Shown here: positions 7,202-14,302 of the stretch, piece by piece | How positions within the stretch are numbered: position 1 is the first letter of the stretch | How the letters are laid out: every line of letters starts with the position of its first letter | Origin: Thermoplasmata archaeon | GTDB taxonomy: Archaea; Thermoplasmatota; Thermoplasmata; Methanomassiliicoccales; Methanomethylophilaceae | DNA: 64,000 bases | Assembly (NCBI GenBank): GCA_015063125.1 | Contig: SUTB01000003.1 | Coordinates: 62,001-126,000, forward strand | Reading direction: 5' to 3' | Notes under the pieces: model-generated | What the model was told of the DNA's origin: nothing | Seen by the model: only the letters and a program-made list of their open reading frames with translations | Databases searched by the model: none | Position numbers and translations under genes: made by a program

Positions 7202-8491
7202 TCAGATCTCGTCTTCCGGGATGATGGTGTATTGCCCTTCGTACTTCTTCTTGAACAGTGAAGAAAGGATCGGAGGCGCTATGATAGTGGTCAGCACGGA
7301 CATCATGACGACGACGGTGTAGAGGTCTCCGGTCATCACACCAGCGTGGAGACCTATCGATGCGATGATGATTCCGACCTCTCCCCTGGGCATCATACCG
7401 ACTCCGATGATGCTGAAGGAGGCTCTGTCGATCGACTTGTCCCCGAGTCTTGCTCCGAGACCACATCCGAAGTACTTGGTGACCATTGCAAGGATGATGA
7501 CGATCAGAACAAGGAACACTATTGACAGATCGGTCATCGCGTATATGTCCACCTGCAGTCCGACGTTGATGAAGAAGAACGAGATCAGGAACGAGGTGAT
7601 AGCCTCCACCCTGTGCTCCAGCTCCCACTCCCAAGCGTAATCTGCGAACATCATTCCTGCAAGGAATGCTCCGATGATCGCTGCGAGACCGATGTACTCT
7701 GCCAGAGCGGCCATTGAGAGACAGACGATGATGGCGAAGACCAGCTTGTTGTATGTGATGGGGACCTTTCCGGCTGCCCTGACCTTCGCATTCCTCTCAT
7801 CGAAGAAGTCGTAGATCTTCGGGACGGCGTACTTGGCAACTGCTATCGCAGCCAACACGAACACCACAGCCTTGATGATGATAATGGAGAGGTCGACCAT
7901 GTCTATACCGCCCTCTGAGGAGGCCATTCCCTGGACGATGGCCAGAACGATCATTCCGAGAACATCGTCGATGACGGCTGCCGCGATGATTATACGGGAT
8001 TCCTTGACCTCCATCAGCCTCATGTCCTTGATGATACGGGCAGTGATCCCTACCGATGTGGCGACCATTGCCGCTCCCATGAACATGGCTGCATTCATGC
8101 TGTATCCTCCGATGGCCATGACCAATGAAAAACCAGCGATGAATGGCAGTATGACTCCCAGCAATGCCGTTAGGAATGCGGCCTTACCGGATCCCAGGAG
8201 GTCCTTGACCTTCGTCTCCAATCCGACGGAGAACAGCAGGAACATGACTCCTAGCTCTGATAGGGTGTAGATGATGTCGTAGATGTTATCCTCGCCGTAC
8301 TCATCAGAATAAGGATCGATAGCGAGGATATCTGTCATGAAGCTTCCTCCAGCAACGTTCGCAATCAGTATACCGATGAGTATCTCGCCGATAAGGCCGG
8401 GAAGACCGAATCTTGCGAAAAGTGTCGCACCTATACGGGCCAACGCGAAGATGACCGCCATACTGAAGAGAACCTGTAAGAGGAGTTCCAT
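7202..8491 (-). CDS. Na+(K+)/H+ antiporter, CPA2 (NapA/KefB) family
   Basis: 429 residues with about 12 membrane spans. Exchanges monovalent cations for protons. Features of the family are GLPGLIGEILIGILIAN near the N-terminus, an acidic pair in a transmembrane helix (AAVIDDVLGMIV) that marks the ion site of electrogenic NapA-type members, and GMMPRGEVGIIIASIGL near the C-terminus. There is no C-terminal RCK/TrkA regulatory domain, so it is the short form. Neighbouring AGCS and NSS carriers use Na+ gradients that this protein could help maintain. Confidence 0.9.
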   Translation of the reverse strand: MELLLQVLFSMAVIFALARIGATLFARFGLPGLIGEILIGILIANVAGGSFMTDILAIDPYSDEYGEDNIYDIIYTLSELGVMFLLFSVGLETKVKDLLGSGKAAFLTALLGVILPFIAGFSLVMAIGGYSMNAAMFMGAAMVATSVGITARIIKDMRLMEVKESRIIIAAAVIDDVLGMIVLAIVQGMASSEGGIDMVDLSIIIIKAVVFVLAAIAVAKYAVPKIYDFFDERNAKVRAAGKVPITYNKLVFAIIVCLSMAALAEYIGLAAIIGAFLAGMMFADYAWEWELEHRVEAITSFLISFFFINVGLQVDIYAMTDLSIVFLVLIVIILAMVTKYFGCGLGARLGDKSIDRASFSIIGVGMMPRGEVGIIIASIGLHAGVMTGDLYTVVVMMSVLTTIIAPPILSSLFKKKYEGQYTIIPEDEI

Positions 8492-8563: not shown

Positions 8564-10741
8564 TCAGAAGTTGAATCCGACTGAATCGTAGCTCTTGGAG
8601 GAGCGTCCGAAGGAGAAGCTGACCATGGGGGCCTGCTTGTCCTCGGGAAGGGGTGCGAGGCACTCCGAATCGGATGCGGCCTCGATCTTCTCCTCGACGT
8701 CCTCGGTTGTTCCCATGGGGATCTTCTGGACCATTCCGTCCTTGAACACGAACTTGTAGGTCGTTGCCTGGATCACAGGCTTCTCTACGATGACGCTGTC
8801 CTTGCTGAAGTCGGGGTTCTCCCTGACATCGGTCTTCTCCTCTACATCAGTGGAGGTCTCGGCCATCTCGGAGATGCCTCCGAGCGCAAGGGCGTTGAAG
8901 GACTCCTCGCGTGCCTCGAGAGGCTCGACCTCGATCTTCGTGAAGGCGACGGTTGAGGGCATTGCCTGGAAGACTGCCTGCTTCTGCATGTCCTGTTCGA
9001 TCTGCATGTAGTCTCCGAAGGCCTCGACAGCGGCCTCGGATGCATCCCATGCGGGCATGACGAATGCCTCCCTCGCAGGGAAGTCGGGAACAGATGCGGT
9101 GAATGCGGTGAATGCCGCTGCGCTCTCCTCGGTGACATCCCATGCGATTTCAGGCACAGGCTGTGCGGGGTACTCGGGCTCGATGGCTCCGAATGCGACG
9201 AATGCGTCTGCTCCGTCCTCGCTGATATCCCAAACGGGAACCTCGACTGATGCGGGCATGCGGACCAGTCCCATGGACTGGAAGTCCTCGAAGGACACTG
9301 CTGCATCCTCGGTGACGTCCCATGCGATTTCAGGCACAGGCTGTGCGGGGTACTCGGGCTCGATGGCTCCGAATGCGACGAATGCGTCTGCAGCATCATC
9401 CGAAATCTCCCAGACAGGAGCAGCAACGAAGGGCTCCTCTTCGGGGATCGACATGATGTGGTCGATGAAGGAGGCCGATGCTTCCTCTGTGATATCCCAA
9501 ACAGGGATCTCGACGGGAACGGGCTCCTCCTCCGGGATCATCGAGATGTAGTCTGCGAAGGAGACGGATGCCTCCTCGGTGACGTCCCATGCGGGCATCT
9601 CTACCGGTGCAGGTTCCTCTTCGGGGATGGACATGATGTGGTCGATGAAGGCGGTTGCCGCAACATCGGAGACATCCCAGACGGGTGCCTCGGCCACTAA
9701 GGGTTCCTCTGCGGGTATTGATGAAATGAAATCTGTGAATGAAACGGATGCTTCCTCGGAGATCTCCCAGACGGGTGCCTCGATAACAGCGGGCACCTCC
9801 ATTGCTGCCGGGACCTCGGGTGCCTGAACAGCAGGCATCTCGGGAACGGATCTGTAGAAGTCCTCGATCTTGGGCTCGTCCCTCTCGACGAACATGATGT
9901 CGAACTCGTCCTCGACATCGGTTCCATCCGCCTCGAAGGGCTGGTCTTCCTCGGCGATGGTCTCCTCCTCGATGAACGATGATTCGGCCCTGATCCTAGA
10001 CTCGACCTTGCTCTCCACGATCTCGTGTGATTCGACGGCGAAATCGAATGAATCGAACTTCTCCTCGGGGGCGGTTCCCCTGATGATACCGTCATCGTTG
10101 ATTCCGGACTGGACCATGACGTCATCGTCCTTCTTCATGATGAGGTTGCCGAAAAGAGCTCTGGGATCTATATCCTCAGCGGGAGATGCATAATCTGAGC
10201 TGTGGTGAACCTCCTCGAATTCCTCGGCGACTTCCTCCTCGATCTTCATGATCATAGGCTCGGAGGGCTCCTCGGCATCCTGTCCCTCGAAGAGGGAGTT
10301 GAAGTCCACGTTCTCCTCTTCCTCGTCATCGTCCTCGTACTCGAACTCGGGGTATTCCTGAGCGGTGTACTTGGGTACCGATTCCACAGGAACGGATTCG
10401 GGCTCCGCAGGGGTGTACTCGAACTCATCGGCGACAGGATGCGGGTTGATAACGACCGCGCTCTCATTGAAAATGTTCCTGACCGAGTGCCTCTGGAAGT
10501 AGATTCCCTGCATCTTCTCGTAACCGTAATCGCTGAGATCCACAGCCTCCGTCTCTTCAGAGGCGGAGGACCTGAACCTGGACAAGTCCGGTTTCTTGAT
10601 CATATCCTTTGCTTTTGATGATAACTGACCAACGCCTTTGCGAACGCTCTTCGTTATCGCATCCGTATTTAGCCTGCGGTCTTTGACTGAACCTACTAAG
10701 TTCTTAAAGCCCGAGCTAAGCTTGCGTGAGCTGTCACTCAT
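8564..10741 (-). CDS. Large acidic protein with nine ~30-residue W/F repeats
   Basis: About 725 residues from MSDSSRKLSSGF; the frame runs on to 10912, but the extra codons overlie promoter sequence. No signal peptide, membrane helix or known enzyme domain. Order: basic N-terminus (residues 1-50), long acidic linker, nine tandem repeats (about residues 319-582), then a C-terminal region with YKFVFKDGMVQKIPMGT. The repeat core is P-x-W-[DE]-[IV]-[ST]-E-x-A-x-x-[SA]-F followed by IPEEEP-like spacers. Repeats 5 and 7 are almost identical in DNA. Probably a cytoplasmic scaffold or binding protein; the partner is unknown. The upstream region is A/T-rich and divergent from the MFS gene. Confidence 0.75.
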   Translation of the reverse strand: MSDSSRKLSSGFKNLVGSVKDRRLNTDAITKSVRKGVGQLSSKAKDMIKKPDLSRFRSSASEETEAVDLSDYGYEKMQGIYFQRHSVRNIFNESAVVINPHPVADEFEYTPAEPESVPVESVPKYTAQEYPEFEYEDDDEEEENVDFNSLFEGQDAEEPSEPMIMKIEEEVAEEFEEVHHSSDYASPAEDIDPRALFGNLIMKKDDDVMVQSGINDDGIIRGTAPEEKFDSFDFAVESHEIVESKVESRIRAESSFIEEETIAEEDQPFEADGTDVEDEFDIMFVERDEPKIEDFYRSVPEMPAVQAPEVPAAMEVPAVIEAPVWEISEEASVSFTDFISSIPAEEPLVAEAPVWDVSDVAATAFIDHIMSIPEEEPAPVEMPAWDVTEEASVSFADYISMIPEEEPVPVEIPVWDITEEASASFIDHIMSIPEEEPFVAAPVWEISDDAADAFVAFGAIEPEYPAQPVPEIAWDVTEDAAVSFEDFQSMGLVRMPASVEVPVWDISEDGADAFVAFGAIEPEYPAQPVPEIAWDVTEESAAAFTAFTASVPDFPAREAFVMPAWDASEAAVEAFGDYMQIEQDMQKQAVFQAMPSTVAFTKIEVEPLEAREESFNALALGGISEMAETSTDVEEKTDVRENPDFSKDSVIVEKPVIQATTYKFVFKDGMVQKIPMGTTEDVEEKIEAASDSECLAPLPEDKQAPMVSFSFGRSSKSYDSVGFNF
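8995..9784 (-). repeat. Nine tandem protein-coding repeats of about 90 bp
   Basis: Nine units of 29-31 codons inside the acidic protein. Each has an invariant Trp followed 9-10 residues later by Phe. Spacers alternate between IPEEEP types and a FGAIEPEYPAQPVPE type. The periodicity is seen directly in the translated sequence. Confidence 0.85.
9127..9390 (-). repeat. 84-bp near-identical duplication, 180 bp apart
   Basis: Bases 9127-9210 match 9307-9390 with one difference (9137 a versus 9317 g). The spacing is exactly two repeat units. This indicates recent duplication or gene conversion within the repeat array. Confidence 0.9.
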
Positions 10742-10912
10742 GCTATCCCATCCAGAAGGAAAAAGGAGGTTCTGTAATATAAAGGTCGCGCCTTTATTTT
10801 GAATAAGATGCCTATAAATAGGCAATTTTTGACTGTTTTTGTCTCGCTTTGACCGGATTTTAAGAACGTTCAATTTTTTATATCGGCAAGCCTGATTGCC
10901 ATCCGATTGCAT
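10742..10912. promoter_or_regulatory. Divergent A/T-rich promoter region
   Basis: 171 bp between the repeat protein (-) and the MFS gene (+). It is rich in A/T runs. TTTTTTATATC at about 10874-10884 is a TATA box for the MFS gene, about 30 bp before its ATG. For the minus gene, ATATTACAGAACCTCC precedes the start and includes a possible TATA element. No other gene seen here. Confidence 0.5.
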
Positions 10913-13050: not shown

Positions 13051-13827
13051 TCAGTGAACATGCGGGAACAGCAGGGCGATGGCTAGCATCAGTCCGACTC
13101 CCAGCAGGATAAGGGCAAGAGACTTCATCTCCTTCTCCTCCCTGTGGAAGGCCTCGGGCAGCATGTCGCACATGGTGACATACAGCAGGGTTCCTGATGC
13201 GAACATCAGCGGCAGTCCGAGCAGTCCCTCTACCTCCATTCCGCTGAACAGCATGAAGAACAGCGTACCGGTGATCGGGGTGATCAGAGCGAATATCCCC
13301 AAGCGTACGAGCGAGCTCCTCCTGGTGTAATCCGAAAGGAGCATCGTGGACGATAGGGAGAACAGCTCCGCAAACTTGTGGATGCACAAACCGATGGTGG
13401 CCATCAGACCGACTTCCTCTCCGGCCATGAACATAGCCGCCAAGGCGAGACCGTCGCAGGCTGCATGGATCGCCAGACCGATGTATGACGAAACAGAGAC
13501 GAGCTTGTGGGAGTGCCCGTCCTCGTGGCAGCCGCACTTGTCGTGATGGAGATGGTCCATCAGCTTCTCCAGGATCAGTATGGCAAGGAAACCTAGCGCA
13601 AGGACGATCATCGAGTAGTGGGTGTCGATTCCACCCTCCTCGCTTTCCTCCAGAGCCTCTGGCAGGAGCATGAACAGAAGCAGACCGAGGAATATCCCCG
13701 CGCTTATGGCGATCATAAGATGGGTACGCCCATCATCCTTCCTGCCGAACATGGGCAGGTAAGCTCCTATCAGCGAGATCGCCACAAGGAGCGCCGAGTA
13801 CATCAAGAACAGCATTATCGGTTCCAT
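13051..13827 (-). CDS. ZIP-family divalent metal transporter
   Basis: 258 residues, eight predicted membrane helices. ZIP carriers bring divalent metals into the cytoplasm. The metal path residues are in helix 4 (AIHAACDGLALA) and helix 5 (CIHKFAELFSL). Between helices 3 and 4 is a His/Cys-rich loop (DHLHHDKCGCHEDGHSHK) that would collect metal. The divergent gene encodes a NikR-like regulator, and the shared promoter holds symmetric half-sites, so uptake is probably metal-controlled. Zn, Ni, Co or Fe are all possible cargo. The TATA box lies within the operator and gives a near leaderless start. Confidence 0.9.
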   Translation of the reverse strand: MEPIMLFLMYSALLVAISLIGAYLPMFGRKDDGRTHLMIAISAGIFLGLLLFMLLPEALEESEEGGIDTHYSMIVLALGFLAILILEKLMDHLHHDKCGCHEDGHSHKLVSVSSYIGLAIHAACDGLALAAMFMAGEEVGLMATIGLCIHKFAELFSLSSTMLLSDYTRRSSLVRLGIFALITPITGTLFFMLFSGMEVEGLLGLPLMFASGTLLYVTMCDMLPEAFHREEKEMKSLALILLGVGLMLAIALLFPHVH

Positions 13828-13918: not shown

Positions 13919-14302
13919 ATGACGATAATAAGCGTGTCGCTCAGCGACGAATACACCGAAGAGCTGGACATCATACAGGAGACCTACAATCTCAAAGGGA
14001 GATCGGAGGCCATCAGGGCCTCGATATCCTCAGCGATGGGAGAGATAAAGGAACTGGACAAGATGGAGGGAATCATCGAGGGGGTGCTGATCATCGTGCG
14101 CAGCCACCACGAGGACCCATGGATGATGCAGATCCAAGGCAGATATCAGGATCACATCAAGACGCAGATGCACTCGCACCTCCAGAACCACAAATGCCTG
14201 GAGGTGATGGTGGTGTCATGCGATGCCCCTGTTCTAAAAGACATATTATCAGAAATAAGGGCTCAGGGGAAAGCGGACTATGTCAAGTTCGTGAGAGGCT
14301 GA
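13919..14302 (+). CDS. nikR: NikR-like ribbon-helix-helix metal-responsive regulator
   Basis: 127 residues. N-terminal ribbon-helix-helix (TIISVSLSDEYTEELD, then GRSEAIRASI) binds DNA. The C-terminal ACT-like domain carries MHSHLQNHKCLEVMVVSC, matching the Ni ligands His87, His89 and Cys95 of E. coli NikR with the same spacing. The fourth ligand, His76, is Gly here (QIQGRYQDH), so the metal site differs and specificity may not be nickel. Divergent from a ZIP transporter, with palindromic half-sites between them; likely represses that gene and itself when metal is plentiful. Confidence 0.88.
   Translation: MTIISVSLSDEYTEELDIIQETYNLKGRSEAIRASISSAMGEIKELDKMEGIIEGVLIIVRSHHEDPWMMQIQGRYQDHIKTQMHSHLQNHKCLEVMVVSCDAPVLKDILSEIRAQGKADYVKFVRG

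Follow-up and report, generated by a model that had tools for sequence, protein, structure and literature searches.

An acidic tryptophan-repeat protein encoded next to a Na+/H+ antiporter in Methanomethylophilaceae: family, array and possible scaffold role

Introduction

What might an acidic protein of 725 residues, with nine regularly spaced tryptophans and no recognizable domain, do in an archaeon of the family Methanomethylophilaceae, and why does its gene lie beside a cation/proton antiporter? The window, which is the whole stretch of 64,000 nucleotides analysed here (contig SUTB01000003.1, positions 62,001 to 126,000), carries this gene at 8564..10741 on the minus strand, with the ATG at 10741 and the end of the stop codon at 8564, as defined by the open reading frame and its translation. 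An initial annotation had described nine units of about 30 residues between a basic N-terminus and a unique C-terminal domain, had recognized no known domain, and had proposed a multivalent docking platform that may be lineage-specific.

The gene and its predicted structure

The position of the gene is constant within the genus in synteny comparison, and the gene is under purifying selection, with a dN/dS of 0.22 against the same-species genome G060 (protein 97% identical). Considering that the same comparison gives 0.255 for the tryptophan array and 0.05 for the adjoining antiporter gene, the 725-residue product is a real, selected and faster-evolving protein. Its open frame would allow a start as far upstream as 10912. 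The assigned start is supported by two conserved elements directly upstream, both on the minus strand: a TATA box (TTTATAT, 10777-10783), which is conserved in the upstream alignment of the clade and probably acts as the promoter, and the leader GGATGGGAT (10745..10753), which immediately precedes the ATG and is conserved in the genus and in most of the other genera examined. The first T of TTTATAT lies 30 nt from the first G of the leader and, in accordance with the known geometry of archaeal promoters, the transcript is predicted to start at GGATGGGAT.

The features of the protein are given here with their minus-strand coordinates. Residues 1-62 (10556..10741) form a basic segment with a net charge of +9, followed by a strongly acidic region (net -116 over residues 63-580), so that the charge division described initially was borne out by composition. 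Two conserved N-terminal blocks were delimited by a held-out profile of relatives together with an AlphaFold2 (AF2) model: block A (residues 68-97, 10451..10540), which is marked by YGYEK and is hairpin-like, and block B (residues 186-221, 10079..10186), in which LFGN is followed by a hairpin. The nine-unit tryptophan array, recognized by profile, tryptophan spacing and AF2, occupies residues 321-590 (8972..9781). It is followed by block C (YKFVFKDGMVQKIP; residues 661-676, 8714..8761), a hairpin identified from the alignment and AF2, and by the C-terminal end MVSFSFG...SVGFNF (residues 706-725, 8567..8626), which contains the invariant Phe columns of the alignment.

The AF2 model of the full protein, built with 30 aligned sequences, has a mean pLDDT of 51.9 and a pTM of 0.25, and 451 residues fall below 50. 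Within it, one helix of about 12 residues is predicted for each tryptophan unit, the last one being longer, as well as a hairpin at residues 74-83 of block A (pLDDT about 80 at residues 71-80), a short helix (193-197) and a hairpin (213-222) in block B, and a hairpin in block C (pLDDT 83 at residues 661-670). The unique C-terminal domain of the initial annotation did not hold: the C-terminal blocks are common to the family, and in this part of the protein the model contains the hairpin 661-676 alone, with no globular domain. A globular N-terminal domain is likewise unsupported, as the AF2 model of a short paralog sharing the N-terminal blocks has a pLDDT of 61 and a pTM of 0.19. No signal or membrane helix is evident in the 725-residue protein, judging from its sequence. 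The protein is thus predicted to be a disordered chain of short motifs.

Distribution and conserved blocks of the family

Neither the protein nor its homologs and paralog had a match above the cut-off in Pfam, NCBIfam, PHROGs or the sequences in PDB, in agreement with the initial annotation; a strong match to a described family did not appear. PF25195 (Diatom pyrenoid component 2) reached 34.3 bits (E 3e-8) in the G007 homolog only, against a curated cut-off of 70 bits; it was rejected as noise, being absent from the window protein and the other members and giving weak matches in unrelated places of the genus. A match to EhbP (E 0.054) was also attributed to chance.

A protein search of 60 relatives returned matches in seven genomes, including its own, the weakest of which (G028) was spurious. 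This match lies in an unrelated long repeat ORF, and the true G028 homolog adjoins the antiporter gene of that genome. The remaining matches are located immediately upstream of a PF00999 antiporter gene, on its strand. Within the genus, an acidic ORF, usually ending in FSFG...FxF, lies upstream of the antiporter gene in the genomes with enough upstream sequence. Beyond it, such ORFs were found by profile in genera g4, g22, g23 and part of g24, and were assigned by position, leader and composition in g3, g5, g6 and g20. Among the genomes examined, those of g2, g7 and g26 and a few scattered ones yielded no such ORF upstream, and the slot is empty in the genomes examined to represent the order's other families, though the antiporter is present there.

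The family consensus is YGYEKYNI..EIYISK.PE.A.FNDGEP for block A, LFxNVxRG....V.T.VG...DG.V for block B and RFxF(K)(D/N)GxLQ for block C, followed by the C-terminal FSFG...FxF, an end of this type being present in most homologs. To place the window protein, a profile of blocks A and B was built without the rows of its own clade, that is, the clade with the tryptophan array, and E-values were obtained for 16 sequences. This held-out profile recovered members from G022 (4e-26), g4 (4e-18), G007 (4e-15), g22 (3e-13), G003 (2e-11), G012 (7e-11), G013 (9e-11) and G009 (1e-9). The window protein scored an E-value of 0.003, which none of 100 block shuffles reached. For the ORFs of g3, g5, g20 and G075 (g24), the profile performed no better than with shuffles, and their placement is based on gene position and leader, with the C-terminal end in addition for g5 and g20. 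Acidic charge is kept among homologs while the sequence diverges. Judged by these sequence comparisons, this is an undescribed and fast-evolving family, seen only in Methanomethylophilaceae; related genomes conserve the gene, and the suggested lineage specificity applies at the level of this family.

The tryptophan array

The protein has exactly nine tryptophans (residues 325, 355, 385, 415, 444, 474, 504, 534 and 565), one in each unit. The regularity noted initially was confirmed, with a tryptophan spacing of 29-31 residues and a Phe at +10 that is invariant in all nine units, the unit consensus being approximately P-(V/A)-W-(D/E)-(V/I)-(S/T)-(E/D)-(E/D)-A-x-x-x-F-x-x-(F/Y). A loose Trp...Phe pattern occurs eight times, whereas 2000 shuffled versions of the protein contain it 0.01 times on average and never more than twice. 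Because the units are only 61-71% alike at the DNA level, the array is no fresh duplication.

Tryptophan units are present in seven genomes of six species, which form a single clade on the antiporter tree (support 0.992); the array, in other words, is confined to one clade of one genus. Their number ranges from about five to eleven: nine in G000, G060 and G007, seven in G013, ten or eleven in G003, and five in G012 and G009. In the next lineage, G022, the protein is a 411-residue version with the conserved blocks but zero tryptophan units. These distributions indicate that the array is a late addition to an older protein, with a single origin in the clade of six species, and, given that the sister species lacks it, the tryptophan units are not essential to the core role of the family. 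The (D)EVADVMRLTVPEL helix motif present in other members was considered as a source of the units and rejected, since the tryptophan-unit profile of the clade finds it no better than it finds shuffles.

Other genera have other repeats at the corresponding position, among them units of the FSWISDM type in G031. In genus g3 (L157:6460-8076, plus strand), a different aromatic repeat (approximately YxGDFSWISDMDxF, three units) was observed there, within the gene that precedes the antiporter gene. It apparently represents independent array growth. The varying unit number and the other repeats elsewhere suggest that arrays grow locally within the family while its short blocks are retained. Members without an array, arrays of about 5, 7, 9 or 11 units and the unlike arrays of other genera together form a natural series that would allow the birth of docking arrays to be tested.

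Shared leader and short paralog

The pattern GGATGGGATN{2,5}ATGRG, searched in 31 genomes of the genus, gave 36 matches compared with one for a reversed-pattern control, mostly two per genome in the clade of the window protein. The second of these matches is the leader of a short paralog, which on contig 3 of G000 encodes 147 residues comprising the N-terminal blocks A and B only (L079:715-1155, plus strand), preceded by the GGATGGGAT leader common to both genes (L079:703-711, plus strand). The paralog has the same blocks and leader and no adjoining antiporter. Its protein is identical in the same-species genome G060 (dN 0), while the G013 and G024 versions reach about 223 residues and contain block C as well. 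A match of the paralog to met_pdase_II (E 0.0013), far under the cut-off, was regarded as chance. The GGATGGGAT leader is possibly a control element of the two genes. Besides these genes, GGATGGGAT has few further matches in these genomes.

The split gene and a candidate frameshift

In nine genomes of the genus (G004, G008, G014, G015, G016, G020, G021, G023 and G027; loci L055, L057, L062, L064, L065, L067, L068, L071 and L119), the long gene is divided between two ORFs; the genomes represent nine species and group as a single clade on the antiporter tree, with a support of 0.935. The end of the first ORF has a layout conserved throughout this clade, GGAGG-N10-CCCTTT(A/G)...TGA, and the open -1 frame of the second ORF extends from precisely the CCCTTT(A/G) heptamer. 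Reading in the -1 frame at the heptamer yields PF, the same residues that the unsplit relatives read from CCCTTTTGA. In addition, the second ORF is intact and under purifying selection, with dN/dS values of 0.09-0.58 in five pairs. A downstream stem-loop at the split site was not significant. A heptamer of the form X_XXY_YYZ with an upstream GGAGG resembling a Shine-Dalgarno sequence corresponds to the arrangement at the dnaX frameshift of bacteria, and CCCTTT(A/G) may be viewed as a candidate site of programmed -1 frameshifting. The alternative is gene fission, with translation restarting at a GTG or CTG that overlaps the TGA. The clade thereby raises a testable question, namely whether -1 frameshifting is conserved in archaea. 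One unequivocal archaeal case, that of alpha-L-fucosidase, was counted in a paper of 2021 (PMC8037382).

Association with the antiporter and possible function

The next gene downstream, 73 nt away (7202..8491, minus strand), encodes a Na+/H+ antiporter of 429 residues, whose sole domain match is PF00999 (Pfam E 2.7e-62); no RCK domain was found in it. The antiporter occurs in 30 of the 31 genomes of the genus, and the acidic gene is located upstream of it on the same strand in all genomes of the genus whose upstream sequence is long enough, as well as in g3, g4, g5, g6, g20, g22, g23 and g24 (nine genera in all), often with a gap of about 50-200 nt. At two loci (L052 and L163), a further gene lies between them. 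One genome, G024, has neither the antiporter nor the long gene and has kept the short paralog. In addition, a C-terminal tail of the antiporter, Y.[IV]..[ED]D.[IL], is seen only in genomes having the acidic ORF, a correlation that is confounded by ancestry; the tail does not occur in g6, g20 or g23, nor in part of g4 and g24.

Both genes belong to a block, conserved as a whole, which also comprises genes for a ZIP transporter, a NikR-like regulator and lysyl-tRNA synthetase. In the window, the ZIP transporter (PF02535) is located at 13054-13827 on the minus strand and the regulator with a NikR_C domain (PF08753) at 13919-14299 on the plus strand; both are near the acidic gene across several genera. 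Tandem antiporter copies, with no acidic ORF upstream, were observed in genus g26 (L166 and L190).

From the antiporter linkage, the joint absence in G024 and the co-occurring tail, we infer an adaptor or regulator linked to the antiporter. The tentative reading that we favor is a cytosolic, mostly disordered multivalent adaptor whose partner would most likely be the antiporter. The conserved blocks may bind one fixed partner, for which the antiporter, perhaps through its short cytosolic C-terminal tail, is the most likely candidate, and the protein would then act as a regulatory or tethering subunit. The tryptophan helices could serve as weak, repeated sticker motifs through which a second protein, or the 725-residue protein itself, would be gathered in many copies at the antiporter site. 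For the basic N-terminus, contact with membrane lipid or nucleic acid is conceivable. Structure prediction supports the scaffold-like anatomy: nine short helices on a mostly disordered acidic chain are what the docking platform of the initial annotation would look like, and that proposal itself is plausible. If true, an antiporter in gut methanogens would have a partner unusual for prokaryotes, a disordered multivalent scaffold in place of a folded subunit.

A somewhat doubtful alternative is that the protein serves as a multivalent scaffold in some other cytosolic process, the gene order being inherited without functional coupling to the antiporter, since both genes lie within the stable block of ZIP transporter, NikR-like and lysyl-tRNA synthetase genes. 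It is consistent with the conservation of the whole block beyond the pair, with the paralog, which carries the N-terminal blocks and the leader but does not adjoin an antiporter, and with at least three genera that have the protein without the conserved antiporter tail. However, the acidic gene is the constant upstream neighbor, whereas the presence of the block's other members varies, and G024 is without both genes.

It is also conceivable, but unlikely, that function resides in the conserved blocks and that the array is a loosely constrained, tolerated expansion of a disordered linker. Unit numbers from about five to eleven within the clade and zero in the sister species, together with the different repeats at the equivalent place in other genera, would be expected from such growth, but the Trp and Phe are invariant across diverged copies, the array is under purifying selection, and it is kept in all seven genomes of the clade.

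Even less probable is a polyelectrolyte, in which an acidic low-complexity chain would mainly serve to buffer or sense cations or protons close to the antiporter, the precise repeats counting for little beyond their charge. The net charge of -116 over residues 63-580, its retention despite sequence divergence and the nature of the partner, a cation/proton antiporter, agree with this idea, whereas charge alone would need neither the invariant Trp and Phe, nor an array dN/dS of 0.255, nor the conserved short blocks. A nucleic-acid-linked factor, whose basic N-terminus (net +9 over residues 1-62) would bind DNA or RNA and whose acidic aromatic chain would recruit proteins as an activation domain does, is very improbable, as no nucleic-acid-binding family or confident fold was found.

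The antiporter-linked adaptor can also be extended into a fuller, speculative scheme, which we consider improbable as a whole: a disordered scaffold would control the antiporter and recruit clients through the new tryptophan-helix array, arrays would evolve in each lineage, the mRNA would have a fixed 5′ leader, and another clade would set the ratio of short to full-length protein by conserved programmed -1 frameshifting.

Comparison with known systems

In the Kef systems, an ancillary subunit binds the cytosolic part of the antiporter and is needed for full activity (PMC10224563). The locus resembles KefF/KefG, which accompany the K+/H+ antiporters KefC/KefB, in that the gene for a soluble protein lies directly upstream of that for a cation/proton antiporter. 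However, KefF is a folded FMN oxidoreductase of about 20 kDa binding the RCK/KTN domain, whereas the 725-residue protein is predicted to be mostly disordered. Because the flavodoxin-like quinone oxidoreductase fold of KefF/KefG is absent according to Pfam, PDB and the AF2 model, the protein is not a Kef ancillary subunit.

The stickers of the pyrenoid linkers EPYC1 and PYCO1 bind their client multivalently, and one tryptophan is essential in the PYCO1 sticker (PMC10288592). By prediction, the 725-residue protein shares with them a disordered repeat chain with evenly spaced helical or tryptophan-containing stickers, a likeness drawn from description. Their client is Rubisco, and the sticker KWSPR is unlike the PxW(D/E)(V/I)(S/T)EEA...F of the present protein.

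Borg elements encode amino-acid tandem repeats in archaeal disordered regions, with independent origins and fast evolution (PMC9879509), and in these respects they are similar to the arrays described here. Borg repeats, however, are perfect, belong to extrachromosomal elements and often lie in proteins that are extracellular or in the membrane, whereas the present repeats are chromosomal, 61-71% alike in DNA and shared by six species, in a protein with no evident signal or membrane helix.
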